Assembly: GCA_018829205.1 (NCBI GenBank)
Contig: JAHJUE010000013.1
Coordinates: 1 to 64,000 of the forward strand
Direction of reading: 5' to 3'
Length of the DNA: 64,000 nucleotides
Origin: Bacteroidota bacterium
Lineage (GTDB): Bacteria; Bacteroidota; Ignavibacteria; Ignavibacteriales; Melioribacteraceae
Shown here piece after piece: positions 9,338 to 57,294 of this stretch (positions are counted from its first letter, which is position 1; each line of letters starts with the position of its first letter). The notes under the pieces were generated by a model. The model did no database searches. It was given only the letters and a program-made list of their open reading frames with translations, and was not told the origin of the DNA. Position numbers and translations under genes: made by a program.

Positions 9338-10396
9338 ATGCCCAAAATTTCTGCAGTTAATTTTACAAATCTAAAAAATTATTCTCCCCCCGATTCATGG
9401 CTGAAAATATCGACTATTGATGCTCATACCGGGGGAGAACCTTTAAGAATAATTTTAACAGGTTATCCTGAATTAAAAGGAAAAACAATACTCGAAAAAA
9501 GAAAATTTGCTAAAGATAATTATGACCATTTACGTACTGCAATTATGTTTGAACCGCGAGGTCACGCAGATATGTATGGATGCATTTTAACCGAAGCCGT
9601 TACGCAAGAGGCTGATTTCGGAATTTTATTTTTACATAATGAAGGCTACAGTACAATGTGCGGTCACGCAATTATTGCTATTACAAAAGTTGCCGTTGAA
9701 ACAGGTTTCGTAAAAACAGTAAATCCAGTTACGGAAATTATAATTGATTCGCCCGCGGGATTAATAACTTCATACGCAATAATCCGGGATGGAAAAGTTG
9801 AAAATGTATATTTTCATAATGTCCCTTCGTTTGTACAAATTTTAAATAATGAAATTGAAGTGAAAGGACTTGGAAAGGTAAAATTTGACATTGCTTACGG
9901 CGGCGCTTTTTATGCTTTTGTGAACGCCGATTTATTAGGTATTTCCATGGCGCCTGATAACTACAGTCAGCTTATAGAAAAAGGCATGGAAATAAAAAGA
10001 GCGGTAATGAAAAATTATAAATTAGAGCATCCGTTTGATGAAGACCTAAACTTTCTTTATGGTACAATATTTACCGGTAAAGCATTAAACGGAAATGCCG
10101 ACAGCAGAAATGTATGTATATTCGCTGAGGGAGAAGTTGATAGAAGTCCTACAGGTACAGGCGTAAGCGCGCGTATGGCTCTGCATTACGCGAAAGGTGA
10201 AATAAAATTAAATGAATCCATGATAATTGAAAGTATACTCGGGACCCGTTTTAAAGCTTCTCCAATTAAAGAAACAAAATTCGGGCCTTATAATGCGGTA
10301 ATTCCCGAAGTATCGGGAGAAGCGTTTATAACAGGGAAAAATGAATTCTGGATTGATCCGGCTGATCCATTAAAAAACGGTTTTATTTTAAGATAA
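9338..10396 (+). CDS. Proline racemase family protein, probable trans-3-hydroxy-L-proline dehydratase
   Basis: The family fold is clear: IDAHTGGEPLRIILTG near residue 28, GYSTMCGHAIIAI with the first active-site Cys (C108), and DRSPTGTGVSARMALHYAKG near 268. Racemases and 4-hydroxyproline epimerases carry Cys (or Ser) in the second motif (DRSPCGTG). Thr at that position (T272 here) marks the dehydratase branch, known from human L3HYPDH, which converts trans-3-hydroxy-L-proline to pyrroline-2-carboxylate. It is first in a five-gene operon with peptide uptake and prolyl-peptidase genes, which fits a collagen-type peptide diet. The start has the ribosome-binding site CCGGAG. Confidence 0.82.
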   Translation: MPKISAVNFTNLKNYSPPDSWLKISTIDAHTGGEPLRIILTGYPELKGKTILEKRKFAKDNYDHLRTAIMFEPRGHADMYGCILTEAVTQEADFGILFLHNEGYSTMCGHAIIAITKVAVETGFVKTVNPVTEIIIDSPAGLITSYAIIRDGKVENVYFHNVPSFVQILNNEIEVKGLGKVKFDIAYGGAFYAFVNADLLGISMAPDNYSQLIEKGMEIKRAVMKNYKLEHPFDEDLNFLYGTIFTGKALNGNADSRNVCIFAEGEVDRSPTGTGVSARMALHYAKGEIKLNESMIIESILGTRFKASPIKETKFGPYNAVIPEVSGEAFITGKNEFWIDPADPLKNGFILR

Positions 10397-10413
10397 ATTA
10401 ATAAGGAGCTCTA

Positions 10414-11685
10414 ATGCTGAAAAAACATCCTAGCGGTATAATGATTTTATTTTTTACGGAAATGTGGGAAAGATTCGGATTCTATACTTTAATGGCAATA
10501 CTGGTTTTATACATGGGAAGTGAATTCGGCTGGGATGATTCACAAAAGGGGGACGCATACGGATTATTCTTAGGACTTGTCTATTTTATCCCGCTGCTGG
10601 GCGGCTACATAGGCGATAAAATTTTCGGACAAATAAACACTGTCAGGGCCGGAGCAGTTCTTATGATTGCCGGGTATATATTTTTAGGATTTTCATCCGC
10701 AGAAAATATAATGTTTTTTTATTTGGGATTATTCCTTGTTGCTTTCGGGACAGGGATATTTAAAGTAAACATAGCGGTACTTGTCGGAAATCTTTATAAA
10801 GAAAAACCCGCATTAAAGGACGCAGGTTTTAATATATTTTATATGGGTGTTAATGTCGGGGCAACAATTGCGCCGCTAGCCGCGACAATTATCAGCGCCG
10901 TTTGGGGAAGTTATAATATATCATTTTTTGCCGCCGCCGCGGGAATGACACTGGGAATTATTAATCTTCAATTCGGAGTTAAAAAATTGTCCGCAACCGA
11001 TACCCGTTCCGCTAAAGCTAACGGCAATGATTTTACCGTATCAAATATTCCGGCCGCAGAATTTACACAAAGGATTATTTCATTAATTATTTTATTTGTT
11101 ATCGTAATATTTTTCTGGATGGCATTTTACCAGAACGGTTTTGCTTTAACGTTGTTTGCCGAAAGGTCAACTCTTAAAATTGACTGGCTGCGTCCCGAGA
11201 CCTATCAATTTTTTAATCCGTTTTTCATTTTAGTATTAACCCCACTATTATTGGGATATTTTTATAAACTTAATAAGTCCGGCAAAGAGCCGGCTACCCC
11301 AATGAAAATATTTATTGGTATGATGATTATGGCATTTTCTATGATTATTATGGTTGCCGCTTCGCTTCAGGGCGGAAACGACGACGCCAATAATATGATG
11401 CCCGCATGGTTAATTGGAACATATTTTATAGTTACTCTTGCGGAAATTATGATATCTCCGATGGGACAGTCATATGTATCAAAAGTAGCGCCTCCTAAAA
11501 TTCAAGGATTAATGATGGGAGGATGGTTTGCCGCAACGGCATGCGGAAGCTACGGTTCCGGCTTATTAGGAAAATACTACAGCGATTTTGCGCATCACGA
11601 ATATTTTTTAATACTTACAGGACTGCTTCTTTTTTCGGCTTCCTTAGTATTAATTTTTATGAAAAAATTAAAAAAATTCTCGTAA
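10414..11685 (+). CDS. POT/PTR2-family proton-dependent di/tripeptide transporter
   Basis: An MFS-fold importer of di- and tripeptides driven by the proton gradient. The POT hallmark ExxERF is present near the N-terminus (TEMWERFGFYTLMAIL, residues 15-30), followed by about 12 hydrophobic segments. A second family block is FNIFYMGVNVGATIAPL. At 423 residues it is shorter than most bacterial POTs (about 450-500). It lies 17 bp after the dehydratase with an AAGGAG ribosome-binding site. Substrates are inferred to be proline-rich peptides from the neighbours. Confidence 0.88.
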   Translation: MLKKHPSGIMILFFTEMWERFGFYTLMAILVLYMGSEFGWDDSQKGDAYGLFLGLVYFIPLLGGYIGDKIFGQINTVRAGAVLMIAGYIFLGFSSAENIMFFYLGLFLVAFGTGIFKVNIAVLVGNLYKEKPALKDAGFNIFYMGVNVGATIAPLAATIISAVWGSYNISFFAAAAGMTLGIINLQFGVKKLSATDTRSAKANGNDFTVSNIPAAEFTQRIISLIILFVIVIFFWMAFYQNGFALTLFAERSTLKIDWLRPETYQFFNPFFILVLTPLLLGYFYKLNKSGKEPATPMKIFIGMMIMAFSMIIMVAASLQGGNDDANNMMPAWLIGTYFIVTLAEIMISPMGQSYVSKVAPPKIQGLMMGGWFAATACGSYGSGLLGKYYSDFAHHEYFLILTGLLLFSASLVLIFMKKLKKFS

Positions 11686-11705
11686 TAATTTGAGGTACTA
11701 AATTT

Positions 11706-12890
11706 ATGATAATTAAAGAAAAAGTAAGTCAAGCAAAAGAATTATTAAAAGAGTTTAATATTGATTGCTGGATAACATTTGTACGCGAGTCTCAAATTAA
11801 CGGTGATCCGATTCTTCCGTTTTTAACTGATGCCGATTTAACATGGCATTCGGCATTTATTTTTTCAAAAGACGGAAAAACCTGCGCAATTGTGGGCAGA
11901 TATGATGAGGCAAACACTAAAGACCTGGGCGTTTATGATAAAGTTATCGGATTCGTAAAAGGTGCCAAAGAAGAAATCCAAAATTACATAAAGGAATTAA
12001 ACCCGGAACAGATCGCAATTAATTATTCGGTCGGCAGCGAAATATGCGACGGACTTACATACGGAATGTATTTAACACTTTATGACTATTTAAAAGAAAT
12101 CGGATTTGAAAATAGATTAATATCAGCGGAAAAAATAATATCTGCTCTTCGCCAAAGAAAATCTCAGACTGAAATTAATTATATGCAAACCGCTATTAAT
12201 CATACATTGGAAATATTTGAAGCTGTTGCCGGGTATATAAAACCCGGAATGAAAGAAAAAGAAGTAGCAGCTTTTATGAAAGCAGAAGTTGAAAATAGAA
12301 AACTCGGTTTCGCTTGGGAAGAAAAAGTTTGCCCCGCCGTTTTCAGCGGTCCGGATACTGCCGCGGCTCATTACGCTCCTTCCGAAAGATTGATCGAGAA
12401 AGGCCATATATTAAATATGGATTTCGGAGTAAAATATAATGGCTACTGCTCAGACCTTCAAAGAACTTTTTATATTCTTAAAGACGGTGAAATTGAAGCC
12501 CCGCAAGACGTGATGATTGGGTTTAATACAATTGTTAAGTCGGTTGAAGATGCTAAACAGGCAATTAAACCCGGCAGGTTCGGACATGAAATTGATAAAG
12601 TTGCGCGCGATGTTATTGTTAATAACGGTTATGAGGAATTTCCTCACGGACTCGGACATCAGGTTGGAATGTATTCGCATGACGGTACGGCATTACTGGG
12701 ACCTGCATGGGAAAAATACGCCGAAAAACCATTTCAGCCATTGGAAGAAGGTATGGTATTTACAATTGAACCGAGACTTGAAGTAAAAGGAAAAGGAATA
12801 GCAACAATTGAAGAAATGATTGTAATTACAAAAGAAGGCGCCGAATGGTTATCCAAGCCTCAGAAAGAAATAATACTAATTAGAGAATAA
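11706..12890 (+). CDS. M24-family Xaa-Pro peptidase (prolidase/aminopeptidase P type)
   Basis: A pita-bread metallopeptidase that cleaves bonds next to proline. The N-terminal creatinase-like domain (residues 1-155) is followed by the catalytic domain with the dinuclear-metal ligands in MDFGVKYNGYCSDLQRTF (two Asp, near 239 and 250), PHGLGHQVG (His), FTIEPRLEV (Glu) and ATIEEMIV (Glu). No signal peptide, so it is cytosolic and would process imported Xaa-Pro or Xaa-Hyp peptides. It lies 20 bp after the transporter gene. Dipeptidase and aminopeptidase activity cannot be told apart from sequence alone. Confidence 0.85.
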   Translation: MIIKEKVSQAKELLKEFNIDCWITFVRESQINGDPILPFLTDADLTWHSAFIFSKDGKTCAIVGRYDEANTKDLGVYDKVIGFVKGAKEEIQNYIKELNPEQIAINYSVGSEICDGLTYGMYLTLYDYLKEIGFENRLISAEKIISALRQRKSQTEINYMQTAINHTLEIFEAVAGYIKPGMKEKEVAAFMKAEVENRKLGFAWEEKVCPAVFSGPDTAAAHYAPSERLIEKGHILNMDFGVKYNGYCSDLQRTFYILKDGEIEAPQDVMIGFNTIVKSVEDAKQAIKPGRFGHEIDKVARDVIVNNGYEEFPHGLGHQVGMYSHDGTALLGPAWEKYAEKPFQPLEEGMVFTIEPRLEVKGKGIATIEEMIVITKEGAEWLSKPQKEIILIRE

Positions 12891-12913
12891 TAAAAAATTA
12901 CAAAAGGATTATT

Positions 12914-13801
12914 ATGGATTTAGCAGGTATTTTCCCGCCATTACCTACACCGTTTATTGATGATGAAATTGCGGTTGACAAACTTAAAATGAATATTGAT
13001 AAATTAAACAATACGAACCTTTCCGGTTATGTTGTTATGGGCTCCAATGGCGAAAGCGTTTATTTATCAATGAAGGAAAAAATTGAACTCGTTTCAAAAG
13101 TAAAAGAATATGCTTCTGGTAATAAGAAAATTATTGCGGGTACGGGACTCGAATCTATAAAAGACACAATTAAATTAACAAATGAAGCCGCTGATGCAGG
13201 AGCGGACTGTTCATTAATTTTAACTCCATCGTATTATAAGTCTAAAATGACGCATAATGCATTTGTTGAATATTTTTATAATGTAGCCGATGAAGTAAAA
13301 ATTCCCGTATTAATTTATAATGTTCCAAAATTTACTGGAGTTGATATTGAAACCGGAACAGTTGCCAAACTTGCTGATCACAAAAATATTATAGGCATTA
13401 AAAACAGTTCAGAAAATATCGCTCAGCTTGCCGAAATAATTTATTCTACTCCGGATGATTTTATAACGCTTGTGGGAACAGCTTCAGTAATTTTTTCGGG
13501 CATGTCAATTGGCGCTAAAGGAGCAATTGCCGCACTAGCAAATATTGCTCCTTATGAATGTCTTAAAATATTTGATTTGTTTAACAGCGGTAAAATTGAT
13601 GAAAGCTTATCACTGCAATTTAAAATGCTTGCTCTAAATAAAGCTGTTACAGCAAAATACGGAGTGCCGGGACTTAAAAAAGCAATGGATTTGTTGGGAT
13701 ATTTTGGCGGGAATCCGAGAAAACCTTTGCCGATTTTAAATGAAATTGAAACGCAAGATTTAAAAAATATTTTAGCATCTGCTGATATATTAACTGTATA
13801 A
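12914..13801 (+). CDS. DapA-family class I aldolase, HOGA1-like (probable 4-hydroxy-2-oxoglutarate aldolase)
   Basis: A TIM-barrel Schiff-base lyase. It has Lys163 in IIGIKNSSEN, Tyr135 in LIYNVPKFTG and a phosphate/carboxylate loop GSNGE (43-47), where DHDPS has GTTGE. The opening LAGIFPPLPTPF, the GSNGE loop and the ending YGVPGLKKAMDLLGYFGG closely recall mammalian mitochondrial HOGA1, which splits 4-hydroxy-2-oxoglutarate to pyruvate and glyoxylate at the end of hydroxyproline breakdown. The alternative in this family is 1-pyrroline-4-hydroxy-2-carboxylate deaminase, but no hydroxyproline 2-epimerase is visible here. DHDPS is unlikely given the context. It lies 23 bp after the Xaa-Pro peptidase. 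Confidence 0.8.
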   Translation: MDLAGIFPPLPTPFIDDEIAVDKLKMNIDKLNNTNLSGYVVMGSNGESVYLSMKEKIELVSKVKEYASGNKKIIAGTGLESIKDTIKLTNEAADAGADCSLILTPSYYKSKMTHNAFVEYFYNVADEVKIPVLIYNVPKFTGVDIETGTVAKLADHKNIIGIKNSSENIAQLAEIIYSTPDDFITLVGTASVIFSGMSIGAKGAIAALANIAPYECLKIFDLFNSGKIDESLSLQFKMLALNKAVTAKYGVPGLKKAMDLLGYFGGNPRKPLPILNEIETQDLKNILASADILTV

Positions 13802-13858
13802 TTAATTTTAAAGATATAATAATTCATCCAATTACTGACTAAATTATGGCGAAAAAAA

Positions 13859-15151
13859 ATGAAAGGAAAAATTCTTTTAACAATTGCCTGTACTTTATTT
13901 TTATTTAGTAAAATTACATTTGCGCAGGAAACTAAAACAAAATTATTTGAATGGCTGAAATCAAAATCTGAAATTGATATTAAAGAAATTACTTATTCCG
14001 ATAACTATAATGAAGCTTACGAAATTATGATTGAACAGCCTGTTGACCACAAGAATCCCGACGGTGATAAATTCCGTCAGCAGATATTTCTATTTAACGT
14101 AAATGAAAACAGCCCTGTTGTTATTGAACTTGATGGTTACGATGTTGACGGTAAAAGAAAAAATGAGCTTAGCCAATTATTAAAATCAAATTATATACTT
14201 GTCGAGCATCGATATTTTGCCGAATCAACGCCCGAAAATAAAAACTGGCAGTATCTGAATATTGAGCAAGCCGCCGGGGATGCACATAGAATTATTCAGT
14301 TATTCAAAGAATATTATAAGAATAAATGGGTAAGTACCGGAATAAGTAAGGGAGGGCAAACTACAATTTATCATAGATATTTTTATAATGACGATGTTGA
14401 CGCTTCCGTTCCATACGTTGCCCCAATTAATCTGGCAAAAGAAGATCCGCGAATTTTTACATTCTTAAATAATGTAGGCGATGAAAGCTGCAGACATATT
14501 ATAAAAGAATTTCAAAGAAACGCTCTTGCAAAAAAAACTGAAATTCTTCCCATAATTTTAAAAAAGGCCGAAGCAGACGGAATAGAATTTGTTATTGATC
14601 CAATGATGGCATTTGAATACGCGATATTAGAATATCCATTCTATTTTTGGCAATGGGATGATAATTGCGCGGGAGTTCCCGGTACTTATGTTTCATGCGA
14701 AAAAATTGCTGATTATTTATGGGGCTTAAAATTCTTTGATTTATACGATGTAAAAGAATTAAAGAGAATAGAGTCATTTTTTTATCAGGCTTATACTGAA
14801 ATTGGATATTACGGATATGACATAACAGATTTTAATGATTTGATTACGGAAGTTAAAAATCCGACAAATGAAATTTTTGCTCCCAAAGAAGTTAATTTAA
14901 AATATAATTACGAATCTATGCAGAAAGTATATGAATGGATAATGAATGAAGGACAGAACTTTATATTTATTTACGGAGAATATGATCCGTGGAACGCATC
15001 GTCGGTTCAATTAAACGGTACGACAAATTCAATTAAAATGGTAAAAAAAGCAGGTTCGCACGCAACAAGAATAAAACATTTTAATAATGAAGAGAAAGAA
15101 TTGATTTATTCAACTTTGGAAAAATGGCTGGACATTAAAATTAATAGATAA
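13859..15151 (+). CDS. Secreted serine peptidase of family S37 (prolyl tripeptidyl aminopeptidase type)
   Basis: Signal peptide at residues 1-22 (ending ITFAQ). It is an alpha/beta hydrolase with the VEHRYFAES block (115-123), the nucleophile in VSTGISKGGQTT (Ser163), the Asp in YGEYDPWNASS and the His in GSHATRI near the C-terminus. This pattern matches S37 (PS-10), whose Streptomyces member releases proline-containing tripeptides. It acts outside the cytoplasm and would feed the POT transporter of the same operon. The 57-bp gap to the aldolase holds no terminator. It converges on the response regulator with only 8 bp between stops. Confidence 0.82.
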   Translation: MKGKILLTIACTLFLFSKITFAQETKTKLFEWLKSKSEIDIKEITYSDNYNEAYEIMIEQPVDHKNPDGDKFRQQIFLFNVNENSPVVIELDGYDVDGKRKNELSQLLKSNYILVEHRYFAESTPENKNWQYLNIEQAAGDAHRIIQLFKEYYKNKWVSTGISKGGQTTIYHRYFYNDDVDASVPYVAPINLAKEDPRIFTFLNNVGDESCRHIIKEFQRNALAKKTEILPIILKKAEADGIEFVIDPMMAFEYAILEYPFYFWQWDDNCAGVPGTYVSCEKIADYLWGLKFFDLYDVKELKRIESFFYQAYTEIGYYGYDITDFNDLITEVKNPTNEIFAPKEVNLKYNYESMQKVYEWIMNEGQNFIFIYGEYDPWNASSVQLNGTTNSIKMVKKAGSHATRIKHFNNEEKELIYSTLEKWLDIKINR

Positions 15152-32711: not shown

Positions 32712-33608
32712 TTAAGCCATTTCGGTTTTTTTAATTCTTCTTAATTTATTTATAGAAGAGAGTTCACTATCAAAAACTTTTTTAATGCCGTCGCCGAGTG
32801 ATTTTTCAATATCTCTTATATCTTTAACAAGTCTGAACATACCTTGAACCTCTACCGAAGCGGCTTGATCGGAACCCCACATAGCTCGGTCTAAAGTTAT
32901 ATGCCGTTCTATAAATGCAGCGCCGAGTGCGACAGCGGCCATTGTTGGCGCCAGCCCGGTTTCATGACCCGAGTATCCGATTGGTATATTAGGAAATTTC
33001 TTTTTATAAGTTTGAATAACTCTAAGATTTAGTTCCTCAAGCTTGCATGGATATGTTGAGGTTGACTGAGCAAGTAAAATATTCTCATTACCACAAAGCA
33101 TTACAGCATTTTCAACTTCTTCCATTGAAGACATACCCGAAGAAAGCATTATCGGTTTACCCGTTTTTTTAACACATTTTAAAAGTTCAGAATCAGTTAA
33201 TGAAGCAGAAGCAATTTTATAAATTACAGGATCGAATTTATTGATAAAATCAACCGCTCCCTCATCCCAGGGAGAAACGAACCAATGAATATTTTTTTTT
33301 CGGCAGTAACTGTCAATTTCGGCATATTCATCTTCATTAAACTCAACTTTGTATCGGTAATCAATATATGTCATTCTTCCCCAAGGCGTGTCTCTCTCAA
33401 TATTCCATTGATCTTTTGGGACACAAAGTTCGGGAGTTCTTTTTTGAAATTTTACAGCATCGCATCCAGAGAAAACGGCACCGTCGATAAGTTTTTTTGC
33501 ATTTTCCAGAGATCCGTTATGGTTAATACCTATTTCCGCAATAATGTAAACAGGCTCTCCGTCGCCAATAAAACGGTCGCCCACTTTAACATTGTTTGGT
33601 TTTATCAT
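32712..33608 (-). CDS. NeuB-like sialic/ulosonic acid synthase, lacking the SAF domain
   Basis: Condenses PEP with a hexose derivative to form a nonulosonic acid. The TIM-barrel marks are PVYIIAEIGINHNGSLENAK, GCDAVKFQKRTPE, YKIASASLTDSELL, LSSGMSSMEEVENAV, NIPIGYSGHETGLAP and GAAFIERHITLDRAMWGSDQ. NeuB/SpsE proteins usually reach 340-370 residues with a C-terminal SAF (antifreeze-like) domain. This one ends at 298, just after the barrel. It belongs to a minus-strand sugar operon with a phosphatase and a cytidylyltransferase; the preceding phosphatase gene is 30 bp upstream. Confidence 0.85.
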   Translation of the reverse strand: MIKPNNVKVGDRFIGDGEPVYIIAEIGINHNGSLENAKKLIDGAVFSGCDAVKFQKRTPELCVPKDQWNIERDTPWGRMTYIDYRYKVEFNEDEYAEIDSYCRKKNIHWFVSPWDEGAVDFINKFDPVIYKIASASLTDSELLKCVKKTGKPIMLSSGMSSMEEVENAVMLCGNENILLAQSTSTYPCKLEELNLRVIQTYKKKFPNIPIGYSGHETGLAPTMAAVALGAAFIERHITLDRAMWGSDQAASVEVQGMFRLVKDIRDIEKSLGDGIKKVFDSELSSINKLRRIKKTEMA

Positions 33609-33638
33609 TTTAAAATTCCGATTACTTTTTAAAAATGT

Positions 33639-34148
33639 TTATTTAATCGACTTTGATTCAATTAGAAATTCAGCAAAATCTCTGAAAGCGCCATAACCGC
33701 CGTTGCTTTCCACAATAATATCTGAAACTTCTTTCGCGAACTTTGTGGCATCGGCAGGGCAGGCTGAAAGACCGGCCAGTTTCATAATCTCAATATCATT
33801 TGTATCATCACCAATAAAAGCAACTTCATCAATCAGTAAATTTTTTCTTTTTATAATTTCATTAAGAACTTCAACTTTATTTTTTATGCCTAGGTGTACT
33901 TCATCAATTTTTAATTTAGCAGCTCGCGAAGTAACGATACCTGAATTTTCACCGGTGATTATCCCGGTTTCAATTCCAACTAAACTACGCAAACGCTCAA
34001 CGCCCATTCCGTCGCGGATAGAAAACCTCTTCATTATTTCTCCATCCTGAGAATAGTAAGATCCGGTATCGGTTAAAACGCCGTCGCAATCGGTTAATAA
34101 TAATTTTATTTTTTTTGCCTTTTCAATAATTTCTGGATGTACATTCAT
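33639..34148 (-). CDS. KdsC-like HAD phosphatase
   Basis: A C0-type HAD hydrolase of 169 residues. The nucleophile motif LLLTDCDGVLTD, the threonine motif GIITGENSG, and the acidic motif VAFIGDDTNDIEIMKLAG are all intact. Relatives dephosphorylate KDO-8-P, Neu5Ac-9-P or KDN-9-P, removing the phosphate left after the PEP condensation step. Next to a NeuB-like synthase, this suggests that a phosphorylated hexose, rather than free ManNAc, is the precursor. Confidence 0.85.
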   Translation of the reverse strand: MNVHPEIIEKAKKIKLLLTDCDGVLTDTGSYYSQDGEIMKRFSIRDGMGVERLRSLVGIETGIITGENSGIVTSRAAKLKIDEVHLGIKNKVEVLNEIIKRKNLLIDEVAFIGDDTNDIEIMKLAGLSACPADATKFAKEVSDIIVESNGGYGAFRDFAEFLIESKSIK

Positions 34149-34202
34149 TATATATTCTCATTTACTTTATAAACTTTTAACTTTACTAACTTTCAAACTG
34201 AA

Positions 34203-35006
34203 TTACCATGCAGTCCAGCCGCCGTCAACAATTAAATTTGCGCCGGTCATATATTTTGATGAATCGCCGGCAAGAAAAATTAAAGCTCCTTTGTAATCGT
34301 CGGGTTTTGCCATTCTGCCTAACGGAGTCTTTGCGGAATACTTATTTATAAAAAACTCATCCTGATTGTTCTCAACTCCGCCTGGAGATAATGTATTCAC
34401 GCGCACTCCGTCCTTACCCCAATAAGCGGCAAGATACTTTGTGAACATTATTACCGCACCTTTGGTAGCAGAATACGCAGGCGGTTTATAAAAGGATTGC
34501 GAGCCGTCTTCTTTTATATAAAGAGATTGGTCGGGGGCTGTAATTCCGTATGTTGAAGCGATATTAATAATGCTTCCGGATTTCTGCCGGGCCATTGAAG
34601 TACCGAAAACCTGTGAACATAAAAATACGCCTGTTAAATTTACATCGATAGATTTTTGCCAGAGATCAAGCGGATAATTTTCAAATTTAGATTGTTCGGC
34701 GGCGGCTTTCGGGTTTTCAAACATATCATTTATCGCCGCGTTGTTTACAAGAATATCGATATGCCCAAACATTTCAATTACTTTATCGCGCGCATTTTTT
34801 ACGGAATCGGGATTTGTAACATCAAGCAGTAAACCCATTGAATGAGTTTCTAAAGCATCGGCAAAAATTATGCATTTCTCTTCATTAATATCGGCCGCTA
34901 CAACATTAGCTCCCGCTTCAGATAATGCTTTGCAGTGCTCTTTTCCTATAAGTCCCAATGCTCCTGTTACAACCGCAGTTTTGTTTTTTAGTGAGAACAG
35001 TTCCAT
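34203..35006 (-). CDS. SDR-family oxidoreductase in sugar cluster
   Basis: A classical short-chain dehydrogenase of 267 residues: NAD(P) motif AVVTGALGLIGKEH (near residue 10), LVNNAAIND, and the catalytic Tyr-Lys pair in YSATKGAV. The C-terminus (KYMTGANLIVDGGWTAW) is typical. The family resembles PtmA-type enzymes in legionaminate/flagellin sugar loci. The likely role is to oxidise or reduce a hydroxyl on the sugar acid, pairing with the adjacent aminotransferase. Confidence 0.82.
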   Translation of the reverse strand: MELFSLKNKTAVVTGALGLIGKEHCKALSEAGANVVAADINEEKCIIFADALETHSMGLLLDVTNPDSVKNARDKVIEMFGHIDILVNNAAINDMFENPKAAAEQSKFENYPLDLWQKSIDVNLTGVFLCSQVFGTSMARQKSGSIINIASTYGITAPDQSLYIKEDGSQSFYKPPAYSATKGAVIMFTKYLAAYWGKDGVRVNTLSPGGVENNQDEFFINKYSAKTPLGRMAKPDDYKGALIFLAGDSSKYMTGANLIVDGGWTAW

Positions 35007-35064
35007 ATAAAATATTCTAAGTAATTAATAATTATTTATTTATTCATGAATTTGAAATTGCAGT

Positions 35065-36399
35065 TTATTTTTTAACAGGTTTCATGTTGAAATTGTCTGT
35101 TTTTCTGAACACTGGCTGAACCGGTGTTCCCCTAAGCAATTCAAATACATTTTTATCTTCAACGGCTTTTTTTAAGAGCGGCAGAACATCTCTATAAGCA
35201 TTTAATGTATATTCTATATCTTCATCAGAATGCGAGAAGCTCATATTATGAAATCCGGACCAAAGGACTCCCCGTTTTATCATTTCTTGCTGAACAAAAG
35301 ATTTTAAAATAAGCGGATCTCCGGCACTACCGTCGAAAGAAATGATTGATCGCCAATTATAACCTGAAGCCTTGGTATAATTCATACCTAATCCTTCGGC
35401 AATTTCATTATATCCGTCTTTTAGCTTTTTACCCTGTACATTTAAATAATCGATTACGTTTTTTTCTTTTATTTCCTCTATTGTAGCTTTTGCCGCTGCC
35501 AATGATAACGCTTCGCCCCCAAATGTTGTATAAAAGAAAATATCTTCATCGGCCAAATCCATAATTTTTCTTTTACCCGTTAATACTGAGATAGGCATAC
35601 CGTTGGCTATTGCTTTAGAATAAGTTGCGAGATCGGGTGTAATACCGAAATATTCCTGCGCACCGCCTAAAGCTAATCTGAAACCTGTCCACATTTCATC
35701 AAAAATTAATACAATGTTTTTTTCTTTACAGAGTTCGGCAACTTTATGCAGGAAATTGTCTTTCGGTTCCTGAAATACAACAGGTTCCAATATAACCGCC
35801 GCGGTATCTTCATCAATTGAGTTTTTTAGTGAGTCTATATCATTGTAGTTAAATGTATAACTAATTGCCTGTACGGCTTCCGGAATTCCATTGTTCCTTG
35901 CAGTTACGCTTATGTACCAGTCATGCCAACCGTGATATCCGCAGCATAAAACTTTATTTTTGCCTGTATAAGCGCGGGCAAGTCTAATAGCGGCGCTTGT
36001 AACATCGGCTCCGGTTTTACTATATCTAACCGCTTCCGCGTTCGGTAAAATTTCACGCAGTAATTCAGCCACTTCAACTTCAAGCGGATGCATTAAAGAA
36101 AAAGTAATACCGTTCTCTAATTGTTTTTTAATAGCCTCATCGGTTTTAGGATACGCATAACCCAGAGACAGGGGGCCAATTGCCATATTAAAATCGATAA
36201 ATTCGTTTCCGTCAACATCCCAAACATGTGAGCCCTTTCCTTTTTCCAAATATTTTGGCGATGCGCCGTTCACATACTGAGTAGGACCTTTAGCCAGTGT
36301 TTGAGTAACGGAAGGTATTAAACCCAATGCTCGGCTGTAAAGTTCATCGGACTTTTCAATTACGGGATAATCGTTGTTCAAGCTAATATTGTTAGGCAT
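35065..36399 (-). CDS. Class III aminotransferase (glutamate-1-semialdehyde aminomutase-like)
   Basis: A PLP enzyme of 444 residues. The PLP-binding blocks are YSKTGADVTSAAIRLARAYTGK, CCGYHGWHDWY, LIFDEMWTGFRLALGGAQ and TYSKAIANGMPISVLTG with the Schiff-base Lys. It resembles HemL, but the context (between an SDR and an SpsF-type gene) indicates a sugar role. It would install an amino group on a keto-sugar or keto-acid made by the SDR. The N-terminal ~40 residues extend beyond typical HemL. Confidence 0.85.
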   Translation of the reverse strand: MPNNISLNNDYPVIEKSDELYSRALGLIPSVTQTLAKGPTQYVNGASPKYLEKGKGSHVWDVDGNEFIDFNMAIGPLSLGYAYPKTDEAIKKQLENGITFSLMHPLEVEVAELLREILPNAEAVRYSKTGADVTSAAIRLARAYTGKNKVLCCGYHGWHDWYISVTARNNGIPEAVQAISYTFNYNDIDSLKNSIDEDTAAVILEPVVFQEPKDNFLHKVAELCKEKNIVLIFDEMWTGFRLALGGAQEYFGITPDLATYSKAIANGMPISVLTGKRKIMDLADEDIFFYTTFGGEALSLAAAKATIEEIKEKNVIDYLNVQGKKLKDGYNEIAEGLGMNYTKASGYNWRSIISFDGSAGDPLILKSFVQQEMIKRGVLWSGFHNMSFSHSDEDIEYTLNAYRDVLPLLKKAVEDKNVFELLRGTPVQPVFRKTDNFNMKPVKK

Positions 36400-36424
36400 A
36401 ATATCTCTTCAAATTATTTTGTGA

Positions 36425-37237
36425 TTAACTTTTCTTTAATTCTTTTTTATAATCATCAATTTGGTTTAATTCTTCAAGATGATTTTCGTACCAGTATTTG
36501 CCAATGTACCGGCTATTAATGTCATATATAAACGGTTTATCTTTTAGTAAATTAAGGATATTATTTATGCTGAATTTCGGATTTTTCTTATATAGCTCTT
36601 CATAAACAGTTCTTATAAATATATAGTCTTCTTCATAATCAATTGTCCATCTATGTTTTGCAGAATAATTAAATCCGGTTTCCCATAAAACATTTCCGAT
36701 TCTAAATTTTTCAGGGTTTTCCCATATAAAAGGAGTAGTATGTTCGCGCTCAAGTTTACGTTCGGCTTCTTTCCAAGCTGTTTCAATTGTTTTTAACGAC
36801 ATAATTTCAACATCATTTCCGTCGGGATATGTGGCCGGATGCAGATTACTGACAAAATCGTATTTGTCTATATTATCGATATAGAACTTAAACACTTTGT
36901 CAATTATTTCTGGGTCAATTAAAGGGCAGTCCGAAGGAATTTTAGCCACCGCGTCGGCATTATATTTTTTTGCAGTTTGATAATGTCTGTCTAATAGATC
37001 ATTTAGTTCGCCTCTGAAACATTCAATGCCCTCAGCTTTGCAAATTTCTTCTATTGTATTGTCGGACTTATCCGTAGAAGTAGCGACTACCACCGTTCCC
37101 GCAAGCTGCGCCGACATTACTCTTTCAACCATTCTTACTAGTAATGGTTTTCCGCAAAGTGACATTAATACTTTGTGAGGAAGTCTCGTTGAACCTGTTC
37201 TTGCCTGGATAACCGTAACAATTTTTAATTGAGACAT
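36425..37237 (-). CDS. SpsF-type cytidylyltransferase
   Basis: A NeuA/KdsB-like nucleotidyltransferase of 270 residues. N-terminal signature VTVIQARTGSTRLPHKVLMSLCGKPLL, then AKIPSDCPLIDPEIID and the active-site region HRWTIDYEEDYIFI. It is expected to activate the sugar acid as a CMP derivative. SpsF relatives occur in spore-coat and O-antigen-like loci. It lies 13 bp after a GT-B-like gene and 25 bp before the aminotransferase gene. Confidence 0.85.
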   Translation of the reverse strand: MSQLKIVTVIQARTGSTRLPHKVLMSLCGKPLLVRMVERVMSAQLAGTVVVATSTDKSDNTIEEICKAEGIECFRGELNDLLDRHYQTAKKYNADAVAKIPSDCPLIDPEIIDKVFKFYIDNIDKYDFVSNLHPATYPDGNDVEIMSLKTIETAWKEAERKLEREHTTPFIWENPEKFRIGNVLWETGFNYSAKHRWTIDYEEDYIFIRTVYEELYKKNPKFSINNILNLLKDKPFIYDINSRYIGKYWYENHLEELNQIDDYKKELKKS

Positions 37238-37250
37238 ATTTTCAATTTTA

Positions 37251-38273
37251 TCAATGATTCAAAACCTGTTTATAATCATAATTTTCTTTCATTTCATTTT
37301 CCGGAGCCAATGATTCTTCAATAAACCGTCTTCCAACAGCTGCGATTCTTTCGGCCGAAGTTCCGTTGTTTTGAATGGGCATTAATTTTTTTAGGTCGCT
37401 TAACTTAAAATAAGAATGTACTTCTTTACCTAAAGCAAGTCCAATGTAAACTACTGAAGAATATTTCGCGATTAATACGTCGCAATTTGCAATCATATGA
37501 TTTGTATTGCCTTGCTGGAATATTAAAGAACCGGGAGCATACTTCTCAATTTCCTTTTTCGCTCTTTCAAATAATTCATTTGGGTGAAGTTTAAAAATAA
37601 TCTGTTTCCCTTTTGCTATTTTTACAGCGTCCAAAATAAATTTTTTACGGTTCTCAAATTTAAAAGTTTCTCTTGAGTCTGATGTAGCCACTAAAACATA
37701 ATTATTATATGGGAAATCATTCTTCAAAAATTGTTTTGCGTTATCAAAATTTGGTATTCCTGTTACAACAATTTTTTTAGGATCGGCGCCTTTTTTTACA
37801 AATAATTCTTTGTAACCTTCGGAAGCTACGCAGAATAAATCATAATCTTTTGACAATCCGGTCGCCGCAGTACTAGCGATCCAGCGCGGGAACTTCAAAT
37901 ATTTCGCTAAATAATAACCAATTGTGACAGGGTCGGTCATACCTTCCTGCACGTGTATTACTTTTTTATCCCTAATATTTTTAGGCATTATTAAATCAGA
38001 ACATGTAAAAACAAGATCGTAATTATTATTAAGGCCTTTATAGTCCATTTTCAGCGAGTTGGCTTCAAGAAATTCTTCTGTACTTTTTTTGAATTTTCCG
38101 CCTAATATTGAAAAATTTACAAATCCTTTTTGAACAAAAAAATCCAGAACTCCATCAGTATAATAAGGAGAAAAATAACAGTCGTACTCCTCGTATAAAT
38201 TTTGATAAATTCTAAACATTATTGTCGTTTGATTTAACGAACCGCCGATAAACAGTATTTTCTTTTTCTTCAT
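37251..38273 (-). CDS. GT-B-like glycosyl/glycerophosphotransferase of the sugar cluster
   Basis: 340 residues with no membrane segment. The C-terminal half resembles CDP-glycerol glycerophosphotransferase/UDP-GlcNAc 2-epimerase GT-B folds: VVTGIPNFDNA, YVLVATSDSRETFKFENR, IIFKLHPNELFERA and NCDVLIAKYSSVVYIGLALGKEV. Acceptor and donor are unknown. It is first in the minus-strand operon, so it could transfer the CMP-sugar or take part in its synthesis (an epimerase-like NeuC role is possible but not shown). Confidence 0.6.
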   Translation of the reverse strand: MKKKKILFIGGSLNQTTIMFRIYQNLYEEYDCYFSPYYTDGVLDFFVQKGFVNFSILGGKFKKSTEEFLEANSLKMDYKGLNNNYDLVFTCSDLIMPKNIRDKKVIHVQEGMTDPVTIGYYLAKYLKFPRWIASTAATGLSKDYDLFCVASEGYKELFVKKGADPKKIVVTGIPNFDNAKQFLKNDFPYNNYVLVATSDSRETFKFENRKKFILDAVKIAKGKQIIFKLHPNELFERAKKEIEKYAPGSLIFQQGNTNHMIANCDVLIAKYSSVVYIGLALGKEVHSYFKLSDLKKLMPIQNNGTSAERIAAVGRRFIEESLAPENEMKENYDYKQVLNH

Positions 38274-39607: not shown

Positions 39608-40945
39608 ATGAGCGTATACAGTAAATCAAATTCTTTCAGGGGCGGAATTCATCCGGTTGAGGAAAAACAATTAACTGAAAATCTAGCATTTGAAATAATG
39701 CCTAATCCCAAAAATATTCTTCTTCCTTTATCTCAGCATATAGGCAAACCTGCAATACCGATTGTTAAAAAGGGAGACTCCGTAAAAGCAGGGACACTTG
39801 TGGCTGAACAGGAAGGTTTTATTTCTTCTCCGATTTATAGTTCTGTATCCGGGACTGTGAAAAAAATATCGGTTGAGAATAATGCATCCGGATTCCCGAA
39901 AGAAGCAATTATAATTGAAGCGGCCGAATCAAATGAAATTGAATTGTTCATTCCTTTAGATTTGGATACAGTTACGTCTCAAGAAATTCGTGATAGAGTA
40001 AAAGCTGCGGGAATTGTCGGTCAAGGGGGAGCTGCTTTCCCTACGTTTGTGAAACTTACTCCGCCGAAAGATAAAGAAATAGATTTCGTAATTATTAACG
40101 GATGTGAATGTGAACCATACTTAACAAGAGATTATAGACTAATGCTCGAACGGCCGAAAGAATTAATTGAAGGTCTAAAATTAATTATGAAGTCTCTTGG
40201 AGTCGCAAAAGGAACTATAGGCATTGAAGATAATAAACCTGAAGCGGCTGAAATATTGAAAAGAAATTTAAAAAATGAAAAAAATATTTCTATAGAAATT
40301 TTAAAAACAAAATATCCTCAAGGCGCGGAAAAAATGCTGATAAAAGCGGTAACCGGAAAAGAAGTGCCTCCCGGTAAACTTCCGCTGGATGTAGGAATTG
40401 TAATTCAGAATGTCGGAACTGCAATTGCGATTTTTGATGCGGTTGTAAAAGGTGAGCCGGAAATAACAGCAGCTTTAACGGTTTCCGGTAAAGGAATTAA
40501 TTACCCTAAAAATTTAATAGTAAGAGTAGGGACACCAATTAGTGATGTTCTTGATTATTGCGGCGGGTTAAAAGAAAATGCGGTAAAGGTGGTTGTCGGC
40601 GGTCCGATGATGGGAGTTGCTCAATACGATTTTTCAGCCCCGGTTATGAAAGCAACTTCGGGAATTTTGATACTTACCGAAGAAGAAATCAATTCACACA
40701 AAGAAACCCCCTGTTTAAAATGCGGGAAATGTATTGAGGCCTGCCCTCTTAATTTAATGCCTACAAAGTTAGCCCGACTGTCGCAGCTTGATAAACTTGA
40801 TGATGCCGAACAACTGGGAATTACAGTGTGCATGGAATGCGGAACTTGCACCTTTGCCTGCCCGGCAAATATACCGCTGGTTCAATGGATTAGATTGGGA
40901 AAACAAAGAGTACTTAAAAATCAAAAAGAAAGAATTTCAGCTTAA
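39608..40945 (+). CDS. rnfC: Rnf electron transport complex subunit C
   Basis: Peripheral iron-sulfur/flavin subunit that passes electrons between NADH and the ferredoxin side of the ion-pumping Rnf complex. It has an N-terminal barrel-sandwich domain (GGIHPVEEKQLT...), the NADH/FMN domain (AGIVGQGGAAFPTFVKLTPP, FVIINGCECEPYLTRDYRLM) and two 4Fe-4S motifs near residues 368-430 (CLKCGKCIEACP and CMECGTCTFACP). 445 residues. First gene of the operon C-D-G-E-A-B. Confidence 0.95.
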   Translation: MSVYSKSNSFRGGIHPVEEKQLTENLAFEIMPNPKNILLPLSQHIGKPAIPIVKKGDSVKAGTLVAEQEGFISSPIYSSVSGTVKKISVENNASGFPKEAIIIEAAESNEIELFIPLDLDTVTSQEIRDRVKAAGIVGQGGAAFPTFVKLTPPKDKEIDFVIINGCECEPYLTRDYRLMLERPKELIEGLKLIMKSLGVAKGTIGIEDNKPEAAEILKRNLKNEKNISIEILKTKYPQGAEKMLIKAVTGKEVPPGKLPLDVGIVIQNVGTAIAIFDAVVKGEPEITAALTVSGKGINYPKNLIVRVGTPISDVLDYCGGLKENAVKVVVGGPMMGVAQYDFSAPVMKATSGILILTEEEINSHKETPCLKCGKCIEACPLNLMPTKLARLSQLDKLDDAEQLGITVCMECGTCTFACPANIPLVQWIRLGKQRVLKNQKERISA

Positions 40946-40970
40946 GAGTTTTTTTTGAAATATAGGTCGT

Positions 40971-41015
40971 GATCAAAAGATAAAGATAAAGATTATGATA
41001 AAGATAGAGATCAAG
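40971..41015 (+). repeat. GATAAA-type intergenic repeat inside the rnf operon (copy B)
   Basis: In the 89-bp gap between rnfC and rnfD. It begins GATCAAAAGATAAAGATAAA, continues with two more degenerate GATAAAG units and ends GAGATCAAG at 41015. The unit matches the minus-strand wording of the repeats at 8048-8105 and 29817-29863. It is not strongly self-complementary, so transcription through it is likely. Confidence 0.5.
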
Positions 41016-41034
41016 AATAAAAAATAGAGAAATC

Positions 41035-42000
41035 ATGTCAACAATTACTGCAAATCCGGTTTACAAATTAGAATTAACAAGTTCGCCTCATGTTCATTCG
41101 CGCTGGTCAACAAAACAGGCAATGTGGATGGTTGTTTTAGCTTTATTGCCTGCACTAATTTCTTCTGTTATATTTTTCGGATTTTATCAATTGCTTGTTG
41201 TGTCGGTTAGTGTGGCTTCTGCCGTAGTAACAGAGTCATTAATTAAGTATATCCGAAAAAGGGAAATAACAATTACAGACGGAAGCGGAATAATTACAGG
41301 TATGCTTCTAGGGTTAATACTGCCGCCGAATTTTAATTTATTTTTTACGGCATTAGGTTCCATTGTTGCTATTGGAATCGGTAAAGAAATATTCGGAGGA
41401 CTCGGATATAATATTTTTAATCCCGCGCTTGTCGGAAGAGCATTTCTTCAAGCTGCCTTCCCGGTTCAAATGACCACATGGATTAAACCAAATATGGCTG
41501 TTGATTCTGTTTCAACTGCTACACCGCTTTCCGCTTTTAAATTTGATTCAATATTTGCCGATATAAGTAATATGTTTATTGGAAATATCGGCGGATCGCT
41601 TGGCGAAACCTCAGCGATTTCTATTTTAATCGGGGGGATATTTCTTATTGTAATCGGAGTTGTAAACTGGAGAATTCCGGTTTCAATGTTTCTTGGTGTA
41701 ATTATATTCGGAGGATTATTCTGGCTTCTAAACGCTGATCAATATCCAAGTCCGGTTTTTCATATGCTGGCCGGCGGATTTTTATTCGGAGCGTTTTTTA
41801 TGGCTACCGATTGGGTAACATCTCCTTTAACGGCAAAGGGAATGTGGATATTCGGATTTGGGATTTCATTAGTTGTTGTAATGATTAGATTATTCGGCGG
41901 ACTTCCCGAGGGAGTAATGTACGCCATATTATTTATGAATGCATTTGTGCCATTAATTAACCGTTACACACGCCCACGAATTTTTGGGGAGGCTAAATGA
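41035..42000 (+). CDS. rnfD: Rnf complex subunit D
   Basis: Membrane flavoprotein subunit of the Rnf pump, NqrB/RnfD family. 321 residues with about nine hydrophobic segments. The covalent-FMN site is visible as SVSTATPLSAF near residue 160. Other marks are GSGIITGMLLGLILPP and YNIFNPALVGRAFL. It overlaps rnfG by 4 bp (ATGA), which indicates translational coupling. Confidence 0.95.
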   Translation: MSTITANPVYKLELTSSPHVHSRWSTKQAMWMVVLALLPALISSVIFFGFYQLLVVSVSVASAVVTESLIKYIRKREITITDGSGIITGMLLGLILPPNFNLFFTALGSIVAIGIGKEIFGGLGYNIFNPALVGRAFLQAAFPVQMTTWIKPNMAVDSVSTATPLSAFKFDSIFADISNMFIGNIGGSLGETSAISILIGGIFLIVIGVVNWRIPVSMFLGVIIFGGLFWLLNADQYPSPVFHMLAGGFLFGAFFMATDWVTSPLTAKGMWIFGFGISLVVVMIRLFGGLPEGVMYAILFMNAFVPLINRYTRPRIFGEAK

Positions 42001-42563
42001 AAACAGTAATTCATATGCTGTTAACGCTAACGTTTATAGGTATCGTTTCGGGCGGTTTGCTTTCACAAATAAGTGAATGGGCGGAACCTAAAATTGAAGA
42101 ACATAGAAAAGCGGAAACAGCTCGCGCAATTTATTTAGTTCAACCCGAGGCAAAAAGTTACGAAAGAATTACTAATGTTGATTTTGAAGTTTATAAAGTA
42201 TTTGATGAAATGAAAAATTCAATCGGTTTTGCGCTGCCTTATGAAGGAAACGGTTTTCAGGGTAAAATTAGATTAATGGTGGGATTGAATGATGAATTAA
42301 ATAAACTGAAGGGACTGCAAATTTTAGAACAGGTTGAAACACCGGGACTAGGAACAAAAATAACCGAGGAAAACTTCTTAAAACAATTTCTTAATTTAAG
42401 CGCCCAGCCAATGGTTAATTGGGTTAAAGCCGTTCCTCCTGAAAAACAAAATGAAATTCAGACAATTACCGGCGCAACTATTTCATCCAAAGCTGTGGTA
42501 ATAATTCTAAACGACGGAATAAAAAAACTCCGGGATGCTGAAAAAGACGGAGGAGTTAAATGA
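41997..42563 (+). CDS. rnfG: Rnf complex subunit G
   Basis: Single-pass membrane flavoprotein with an extracytoplasmic FMN domain. The N-terminal anchor is VIHMLLTLTFIGIVSGGLL. The FMN attachment motif is TITGATISSKAVV near residue 158 (S/T-GAT-S/T type). The block LEQVETPGLGTKI is also typical. 188 residues. It overlaps rnfD and rnfE by 4 bp each. Confidence 0.94.
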   Translation: MKTVIHMLLTLTFIGIVSGGLLSQISEWAEPKIEEHRKAETARAIYLVQPEAKSYERITNVDFEVYKVFDEMKNSIGFALPYEGNGFQGKIRLMVGLNDELNKLKGLQILEQVETPGLGTKITEENFLKQFLNLSAQPMVNWVKAVPPEKQNEIQTITGATISSKAVVIILNDGIKKLRDAEKDGGVK

Positions 42564-43243
42564 AAAACAAAGTAACCATTATTAAAGAATACACAAAAGG
42601 TATATGGCAGAGTAATCCGGTGTTTAAACAAATATTGGGAATGTGTCCTACTCTCGCCGTTACAGTATCCGCAATTAATGGAATCGCGATGGCCCTTGCC
42701 ACAACATTTGTATTAGTTTTTTCAAGTTTTATTATTTCTTCCGTAAGGAAATTAATCCCGACACAGGTTCGTATAGCTTCATACATTGTTGTTATAGCTA
42801 CATTTGTTACAATTGTTGATTTAGTTATGAAAGCGCAGTTTCCTGAATTAAGTAAATCGCTTGGACCCTACATTCCTTTAATAGTAGTTAACTGTATTAT
42901 TCTGGGAAGACAGGAAGCCTTCTCTTCAAAAAATACTCCGTTAAGATCTGTTGTGGATGCGCTGGGAATGGGAAGCGGATTTTTAATTGCGCTTTTTATG
43001 CTCGGAAGTATACGGGAGCTACTCGGTTCGCGCACAATATTAGGGTTTCAATTATTACCTGATTTTTATGAACCCTGGCTTGTAATGATTTTGCCCGCAG
43101 GTGCTTTTTTAACATTAGGGTTGATGCTTGCTTTTTTTAATAATTTAAGTCTGCATAAAAAGAAAAGCGATAATGATAAACTGATTGCGAAATATTTAAA
43201 AACAAAAACTGCGGCTGATTTTGTAATTGAGGAGAATAAATAA
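42560..43243 (+). CDS. rnfE: Rnf complex subunit E
   Basis: Polytopic membrane subunit of the RnfA/RnfE (NqrD/NqrE) family, which form the ion-translocating core with an inverted-repeat fold. Marks are NPVFKQILGMCPTLAVTVSA and PLIVVNCIILGRQEAF; each symmetrical half carries a conserved Cys for a membrane iron-sulfur site (CPTLAV and NCIILG). 227 residues. It shares one base with the rnfA start (TAATG). Confidence 0.94.
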   Translation: MKNKVTIIKEYTKGIWQSNPVFKQILGMCPTLAVTVSAINGIAMALATTFVLVFSSFIISSVRKLIPTQVRIASYIVVIATFVTIVDLVMKAQFPELSKSLGPYIPLIVVNCIILGRQEAFSSKNTPLRSVVDALGMGSGFLIALFMLGSIRELLGSRTILGFQLLPDFYEPWLVMILPAGAFLTLGLMLAFFNNLSLHKKKSDNDKLIAKYLKTKTAADFVIEENK

Positions 43244-43821
43244 TGGAACTGATATTAATTTTCTTTTCGGCTGCGATTGTAAACAACTTTGTGCTCGCCT
43301 ATTTTTTAGGCATTTGCCCTTTTATCGGAGTATCGAACAAAATTACTTCGGCATTTTCAATGGGTCTCGCCACAACATTTGTTATGACAATTACCGCCAT
43401 TGTTACGTGGTTGATTTATCACTTGATATTAGTCCCGTTTCATCTCGAATTTTTAGAATATGTTTCATTTATTTTAGTGATCGCTTCTCTTGTTCAGTTT
43501 GTTGAAATGTTTATCAAAAAAGTAAGTCAGCCTTTATACCGCGCTCTTGGAATATTTCTTCCGCTTATTACTACTAACTGCGCAATTTTAGGATTAGCGC
43601 TTTTCATAGTTTTAAGAGAATATACTTTTCTACAGGGAATATTTTTTGGAGTTGGCGCGGGCGCGGGTTTTACTTTAGCCATTACAATTATGGCCGGAAT
43701 AAGGGAAGAACTTGATTTAGCCGATGTTCCAAAAGCGTTTCAAGGCGCGCCTATTACTCTAATTGTTGCGGGAATTTTAGCCCTGGCATTTATGGGCTTT
43801 TCTGGATTGATTTCTGTTTAG
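43243..43821 (+). CDS. rnfA: Rnf complex subunit A
   Basis: Polytopic membrane partner of RnfE, 192 residues. Characteristic stretches are NNFVLAYFLGICPFIGVSNK and PLITTNCAILGLALF, again with the paired Cys residues (GICPF and NCAIL). The tandem heptamer array begins at the last base of its stop codon. Confidence 0.95.
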   Translation: MELILIFFSAAIVNNFVLAYFLGICPFIGVSNKITSAFSMGLATTFVMTITAIVTWLIYHLILVPFHLEFLEYVSFILVIASLVQFVEMFIKKVSQPLYRALGIFLPLITTNCAILGLALFIVLREYTFLQGIFFGVGAGAGFTLAITIMAGIREELDLADVPKAFQGAPITLIVAGILALAFMGFSGLISV

Positions 43822-43862
43822 ATATGAGATATGAGATATGAGATATGAGATTTGAGATTTGA
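43821..43862 (+). repeat. Tandem heptamer array between rnfA and rnfB
   Basis: Six perfect-register 7-bp units: four GATATGA then two GATTTGA, starting at the last base of the rnfA stop codon. The 113-bp rnfA-rnfB gap is unusual for this otherwise overlapping operon. The array length could vary by slippage. Confidence 0.85.
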
Positions 43863-43934
43863 GACACAAGAATTAATAAAATATATAAAATTGTTGTTTG
43901 CTTTTATGATTTGGAATTTTAATGCGGAGGTACA

Positions 43935-44756
43935 GTGGATTTAACACTTATTATTGCAATTGCTACAATGGGCGGATTAGGATTTTTATTCGCCGGCGGA
44001 TTAGCAATAGCCGATAAAAAATTAAGAGTTGAAGAAAATCCTTTAATTGGAAAAATAAATGATTTATTGCCTGGTGCTAATTGCGGCGCATGCGGAAAAG
44101 CAGGCTGTTATGATTATGCCGTTAATATTGTTGAAAATAACGCTCCTGTTAACGGTTGCCCTGTAGGCGGAAATGAAACGGCAGTATTAATTGCGGAAAT
44201 ACTTGGCGTTGAAACAAATGCTTCGGTAAAAATGATTCCTCGAATACTATGCAGAGGGGGTAACAGCGAAGCCGTGAAAAAAATGGCTGAATACTTCGGT
44301 CCCTTAAGCTGCTCGGCAATGGATATTGTTTCCGGGGGAGATAAATTATGTTATTACGGTTGCCTAGGCGGCGGCGATTGTGTTAATGCTTGTCCGTTTA
44401 ACGCAATGCTAATGAATAGTGACGGAATTCCTGAAGTTATTGAAGAACTATGCACCGGCTGCGGAATGTGCGTTAAAGCATGTCCCAGGAATGTAATTGA
44501 AATGCATCCTCAGGATAGAAATGTATTTGTATATTGCAAAAACCAGGATGATCCAAAACGATCTAAAGATGTATGCACTGTTTCTTGCATGGGATGCGGT
44601 ATATGCGCCCGGAAATCCGAAGGCGGAGTAGAAATTGTTAATAATCTTGCCGTTATTAATTATGATAAGTTTGTGGAATCCAATATTCCATTTGATAAAT
44701 GTAAAACAAAAGCAATTGACAGAATTGATAAAATTAGTACCGGACAAAATAATTAA
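43935..44756 (+). CDS. rnfB: Rnf complex subunit B (ferredoxin-like)
   Basis: Electron-entry subunit that accepts electrons from ferredoxin. The GTG start has GCGGAGGT upstream. One N-terminal membrane segment (MGGLGFLFAGGLAIA), then the Fes domain Cys50, Cys53, Cys58 and Cys75 (GANCGACGKAGC...NGCPVGG), then ferredoxin motifs CLGGGDCVNACPF and CTGCGMCVKACPR, and a further Cys-rich site VSCMGCGICAR near the C-terminus. 273 residues. Confidence 0.95.
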   Translation: MDLTLIIAIATMGGLGFLFAGGLAIADKKLRVEENPLIGKINDLLPGANCGACGKAGCYDYAVNIVENNAPVNGCPVGGNETAVLIAEILGVETNASVKMIPRILCRGGNSEAVKKMAEYFGPLSCSAMDIVSGGDKLCYYGCLGGGDCVNACPFNAMLMNSDGIPEVIEELCTGCGMCVKACPRNVIEMHPQDRNVFVYCKNQDDPKRSKDVCTVSCMGCGICARKSEGGVEIVNNLAVINYDKFVESNIPFDKCKTKAIDRIDKISTGQNN

Positions 44757-56421: not shown

Positions 56422-56424
56422 AAG

Positions 56425-57258: not shown

Positions 57259-57294
57259 GGTTACCTTTCTTTTTATCTTAATTATAATTAAAAA

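Follow-up and report, generated by a model that had tools for sequence, protein, structure and literature searches.

Two bacterial uses of 4-hydroxyproline are described in the literature consulted, a route through D-hydroxyproline to alpha-ketoglutarate and the radical dehydration carried out by HypD, and the list of enzymes given for vertebrates (PMC8779045) agrees with the full operon route proposed here. The locus in question is a five-gene operon in a stretch of 64,000 nucleotides (the window), which belongs to contig C6 of a 4.59 Mb, 99.95% complete genome of the Ignavibacteriales. This operon is likely, in our view, to be a cut-down version of a system for the use of proline- and hydroxyproline-rich peptides that is conserved in Ignavibacteria and Calditrichota. 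The five genes are listed below.

9338..10396, + strand: T3HD, trans-3-hydroxyproline dehydratase-type protein (Pfam Pro_racemase 4.9e-113; MCGHA and DRSPTGTG motifs)
10414..11685, + strand: POT, compact proton/peptide symporter of 423 aa (TIGR00924 oligopeptide:H+ symporter, 252 bits against a cut-off of 130)
11706..12890, + strand: M24C, cytosolic M24 metallopeptidase, Xaa-Pro peptidase-like, 394 aa (Peptidase_M24 8.4e-47)
12914..13801, + strand: HOGA, 4-hydroxy-2-oxoglutarate aldolase-type protein of the DHDPS family, 295 aa (best PDB match human HOGA1)
13859..15151, + strand: S37, secreted prolyl tripeptidyl peptidase-type serine peptidase, 430 aa (Peptidase_S37 9.8e-52)

The operon and its counterparts in relatives

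The five co-directional open reading frames at 9338-15151, which an earlier sequence-only reading had described as an operon with gaps of 17-57 bp, were all found in the window with that spacing (17, 20, 23 and 57 bp, in order). Both flanking genes lie on the opposite strand; 230 bp separate the operon from HemB on its upstream side, and 8 bp from a response regulator on its downstream side. The Pfam assignments of genes 1-5 (Pro_racemase, PTR2/POT, Peptidase_M24, DHDPS and Peptidase_S37) are all far over the cut-off and, except for S37, agree with the PDB matches, and by motif reading the active-site residues of genes 1, 3, 4 and 5 are unbroken. A scan for promoters and terminators gave no excess over shuffled sequence, and so provides no evidence of an operon.

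Eighty relatives of gene 1 were gathered from public genomes, genes 1 and 4 were searched in 164 genomes of the order, and the neighbourhoods of the matches were read; the relatives' genes are mechanically called reading frames labelled by BLAST at ≥30% identity, and owing to many short contigs the counts are lower bounds. HOGA was found in 51 of the 164 genomes and gene 1 in 21. At the 55 HOGA loci, PRODH is in the same run 49 times (47 times directly upstream) and AGT 36 times; the other partners are PepP (22 runs), P5CDH (16), T3HD (14), HypD (13) and S37 (13), and M24, POT and the HypD activase also recur around the PRODH-HOGA-AGT core. The fullest comparison is offered by locus L178 (genome G128), where the array reads T3HD-POT-M24-PRODH-HOGA-AGT-S37; L165 and L140 have the same type of array without S37, and L208/L209 have PRODH-HOGA-AGT-P5CDH. 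The order in the window is exactly that of L178 minus PRODH and AGT. Gene order, whose absence from relatives had been set beforehand as the test against the sequence-only reading, is thus kept beyond chance, and the theme of hydroxyproline and prolyl peptides proposed there is supported.

The full set of hydroxyproline-type PRODH, P5CDH, HOGA and AGT is encoded together in L208, L209, L146, L179 and others. The relatives' P5CDH is over the cut-off of TIGR01236, and the closest structural match of AGT is alanine-glyoxylate aminotransferase. Since a Leu-type PRODH (see below) and HOGA pair with M24 upstream also occurs in the Calditrichaceae genome of L299, the linkage of PRODH and HOGA extends across a phylum boundary. 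HOGA is present without PRODH in G132 (L161).

In many relatives (L139, L140, L143, L146, L149, L154, L156, L170, L179 and others) HypD and its activase stand directly upstream of PepP-(T3HD)-PRODH-HOGA-AGT. The HypD protein scores 1314 bits with NF043068, the trans-4-hydroxyproline dehydratase equivalog, whose cut-off is 1100. This arrangement suggests a possible pairing of anaerobic and oxidative 4-hydroxyproline branches in one operon.

Residues of the aldolase, the dehydratase and the PRODH paralogues

Gene 4 is 38% identical to human HOGA1, which is also its best PDB match (6e-64; the highest-ranking DHDPS reaches 2.5e-42), and it has the equivalents of all seven human HOGA1 site residues described in PMC3188589 (Ser77, Asn78, Tyr140, Tyr168, Lys196, Ser198 and Gly222). 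The Schiff-base Lys and the equivalents of Ser77, Asn78 and Ser198 are found in 54/54 HOGA proteins compared, whereas DapA has Thr/Thr/Ala. In the tree, a HOGA clade of 55 rows including human is set apart from DapA and the deaminase with support 100/99, the human row carrying a long-branch warning; the window HOGA falls within the PRODH-linked group, where its neighbours are L165, L161, L147 and L164. The HOGA1-like character claimed for gene 4 is therefore borne out by residues, PDB match and tree placement alike. It is very improbable that gene 4 is instead a Pseudomonas-type hydroxypyrroline-carboxylate deaminase (LhpC-like) or the DapA of the lysine pathway. Generic models do call it DapA-like (TIGR00674, 199.5 bits, just below the cut-off of 206), and a DHDPS-family gene in the neighbourhood of a proline racemase family gene usually encodes a deaminase (PMC4113996). 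However, the likely deaminase of this genome sits on another contig (C38), is 21% identical to human HOGA1 and has Thr and Leu at Ser77 and Asn78, whereas gene 4 has all the substrate residues; residues, identity and tree together led us to reject both assignments.

In the PDB, gene 1 matches chain 6r76 best (E 2.5e-150); its deposited name is 'Proline racemase', and we take it to be the Thermococcus trans-3-hydroxyproline dehydratase. The Cys-Thr pair (MCGHA and DRSPTGTG) is present in gene 1, which supports the dehydratase-type assignment, and in every T3HD protein compared. In the proline racemase family this pair marks the dehydratase type (PMC4364671). A proline racemase or 4-hydroxyproline epimerase is ruled out for gene 1, because the second Cys is replaced by Thr. 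TransHydProDhtase is the best NCBIfam model, yet it gives 394 bits against a cut-off of 540; judged by its residues, gene 1 is a divergent subfamily of dehydratase type, and it is not filed as a proven member of that family. The presence of two enzymes of metazoan hydroxyproline catabolism had been considered a peculiarity of the operon, but T3HD is common in bacteria and archaea (PMC4364671).

Two PRODH genes are present in most of the genomes that have HOGA. In E. coli PutA numbering, Tyr540 is reported to enforce the preference of PRODH for proline over hydroxyproline (Ostrander 2009, as cited in PMC3718742). The equivalent position is Leu in 47/47 comparable operon PRODHs and Tyr in 30/30 standalone paralogues of the same genomes, while the remaining catalytic residues (Lys, Asp, Tyr and Arg-Arg) are unchanged in the operon copies. 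Human PRODH2 also lacks the Tyr540 equivalent and carries Ser. Leu-type PRODH and HOGA are both present in 48 genomes of the order, HOGA only in 3, PRODH only in 5 and neither in 108; in G017, which is among the three with HOGA only, a PRODH is cut off at a contig end.

The substrate of the operon PRODH could instead be a different substituted proline or a cyclic imino acid, such as 3-hydroxyproline or pipecolate, and HOGA and AGT could act on other aldol and transamination substrates. Finding Leu where Tyr540 would stand is not enough to name the substrate, enzymes of the AGT family have a broad range, and no AGT-like family model scores over its cut-off with the relatives' AGT. We nevertheless find this alternative unlikely, considering that the operons repeatedly hold HypD, Xaa-Pro peptidases and T3HD, and that the Ser of HOGA that binds the 4-hydroxyl is invariant.

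Proposed route and its probable reduction in the window genome

In the route we favour, the secreted S37 peptidase would clip prolyl peptides outside the cell, POT would import them and M24 peptidases would free proline and hydroxyproline. T3HD would convert trans-3-hydroxyproline to pyrroline-2-carboxylate, which an OCD-type reductase would turn into proline. 4-Hydroxyproline would be oxidised by the dedicated PRODH (Tyr540 to Leu) and next by P5CDH; after transamination, HOGA would split 4-hydroxy-2-oxoglutarate into pyruvate and glyoxylate, and AGT would form glycine from the glyoxylate. The gene content, linkage and residues were observed, and from them we infer the catalytic activities and fluxes.

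M24C has all its metal-ligand motifs (NMDFG...D, PHGLGH, TIEP and EEM) intact, and its closest PDB match is proline dipeptidase 3q6d. The Ser/Asp/His motifs of S37 (GISKGG, GEYDPW and SHATR) are present together with a signal peptide read by eye, and a PDB sequence search gave no solved relative of S37. Of the POT motifs, ExxER, the Lys of LLKPN type and the Glu of the TM10 region are kept in the window protein, but the second peptide-site Arg is replaced (see below).

In the window genome the route is not complete, contrary to what had been proposed for the five genes. The sole PRODH, on contig C8, has Tyr at the Tyr540 equivalent, and a search for a second, Leu-type PRODH that would feed HOGA found none; a search for AGT with one query found no match. 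P5CDH is present on C26 (65% identical), and the only OCD-family reductase match, the step expected after gene 1, is unlinked to the operon (C9, 36%). Remnants of PRODH and AGT sought in the window gave chance-level matches only. 4-Hydroxyproline has an operon of its own elsewhere, in which the roles of the dehydrogenases (semialdehyde dehydrogenase and D-amino-acid dehydrogenase) were read from translations.

L103:5903-11705 (genome G000, contig C38): Pseudomonas-type 4-hydroxyproline operon with AraC, a DapA-like deaminase, a KGSA dehydrogenase-like protein, a Cys-Cys 4-hydroxyproline epimerase (4HypE) and a DadA-like protein

The Cys-Cys epimerase is the only 4-hydroxyproline epimerase seen among the 164 genomes. 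Because Leu-type PRODH is missing, AGT has no match and this separate operon exists, the window HOGA is probably a leftover or orphan enzyme. Given that the window HOGA is surrounded in the tree by HOGAs linked to PRODH, loss of PRODH and AGT in the window lineage is the simplest history, and the observed absences may thus be losses. 4-Hydroxyproline is probably handled by the epimerase/D-hydroxyproline/alpha-ketoglutarate route of C38; this route could have taken over, PRODH and AGT becoming dispensable, and what is left in the window would be the prolyl-peptide and 3-hydroxyproline module plus a retained HOGA.

A different view of the same absences is that the window operon is only a module for proline peptides and 3-hydroxyproline (S37, POT, M24 and T3HD), with HOGA as an accidental or relic passenger. 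The gene complement just described favours it, as does G117 (L188), where T3HD-OCD-POT-M24-S37 has no PRODH, HOGA or AGT alongside. However, HOGA keeps its open frame and all catalytic and substrate residues, and its branch in the tree is not unusually long; these features speak for continued use. The gene is also still in place within a tight operon. We regard a passenger HOGA as a serious possibility, somewhat short of an even chance; this possibility is limited to the window genome and does not conflict with a full system in relatives.

Several points weigh against the proposed route. The Fisher p-values for co-occurrence across the order (7e-32 for Leu-type PRODH and HOGA, 2e-9 for T3HD and HOGA) come from related genomes, so that they are descriptive and overstate independence. 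What Leu in place of Tyr540 does to the enzyme is inferred. The transaminase for 4-hydroxyglutamate is not in the operons, and a housekeeping AspAT is assumed. In place of the peptide-site Arg conserved in the MRAIL motif, the window POT has Met, and 10/10 compact (~423 aa) POTs compared have Met or Ser, so the substrate may differ; the replacement could mark a distinct peptide specificity. Finally, several phyla have HOGA-like proteins with no PRODH beside them (L300, L302-L309, L211 and L212), and HOGA alone is therefore no proof of hydroxyproline use. Among these stand-alone proteins, L307 and L308 have GYDGE in place of GSNGE, and the gene of L303 adjoins an apparent KDPG/KHG-type aldolase.

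On balance, it appears reasonably probable that an animal-type oxidative, glyoxylate-forming 4-hydroxyproline pathway, encoded in one operon with prolyl-peptide import, operates in Ignavibacteria and in one or more lineages of Calditrichota, that its PRODH paralogue changed substrate through a Tyr-to-Leu replacement that became fixed, and that this route was dismantled in the window lineage after or alongside the gain of the Pseudomonas-type one.

Three other loci in the window were noted from translations: an operon resembling the Rnf electron-transport complex (39608-44756; rnfC, D, G, E, A, B), a menaquinone biosynthesis-like cluster on the minus strand (53028-61274; MenE, C, A, B, H, D, F-like), and NeuB-like, cytidylyltransferase-like and aminotransferase genes (32712-38273) that suggest a nonulosonic-acid surface sugar cluster.

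Comparison with known hydroxyproline systems

If the proposal is true, an animal-type operon adds another bacterial 4-hydroxyproline route, and it could serve as a genetic marker for the environmental turnover of collagen or plant hydroxyproline-proteins. It would also provide bacterial enzymes for studying HOGA1 and AGT, two enzymes in which mutations occur in human primary hyperoxaluria. The pair of PRODHs, with Tyr in the housekeeping and Leu in the operon copy, offers a clean test of single-residue specificity, and in the window genome one 4-hydroxyproline route was apparently displaced by another. No report of a bacterial HOGA/PRODH2 operon was found in the open-access literature, which is weak evidence, subscription papers lying outside the search.

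One close parallel is the mitochondrial 4-hydroxyproline catabolism of animals (PRODH2, P5CDH, AspAT/GOT2, HOGA1 and AGT/AGXT), of which full operons in relatives encode PRODH, P5CDH, a HOGA1-type aldolase and AGT. On the one hand, the operon PRODH lacks the Tyr that excludes hydroxyproline, and the substrate-site residues of HOGA are the same as in human. On the other hand, the system is found in bacteria, as a gene cluster that also takes in peptide import, peptidases, T3HD and often HypD, its PRODH is of the short Thermus type with Leu, and the window copy has neither PRODH nor AGT.

The Pseudomonas-type pathway (4HypE, D-hydroxyproline dehydrogenase, Pyr4H2C deaminase and KGSA dehydrogenase) is present in the window genome on C38 with its Cys-Cys epimerase, whereas gene 1 of the window operon is of Cys-Thr type and its aldolase is HOGA-type; other members of the order show no 4HypE. 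The HypD glycyl-radical clusters, known here from the account of Levin 2017 in PMC11574389, are represented in many relatives by HypD and activase preceding PepP-T3HD-PRODH-HOGA-AGT; HypD is not in the window operon, the rest of the window genome not having been searched for it. With the trans-3-hydroxyproline pathway (T3HypD and Pyr2C reductase) the window operon shares the Cys-Thr type of gene 1, and many relatives pair T3HD with an OCD-family reductase, unlike the window genome, in which the two are apart.

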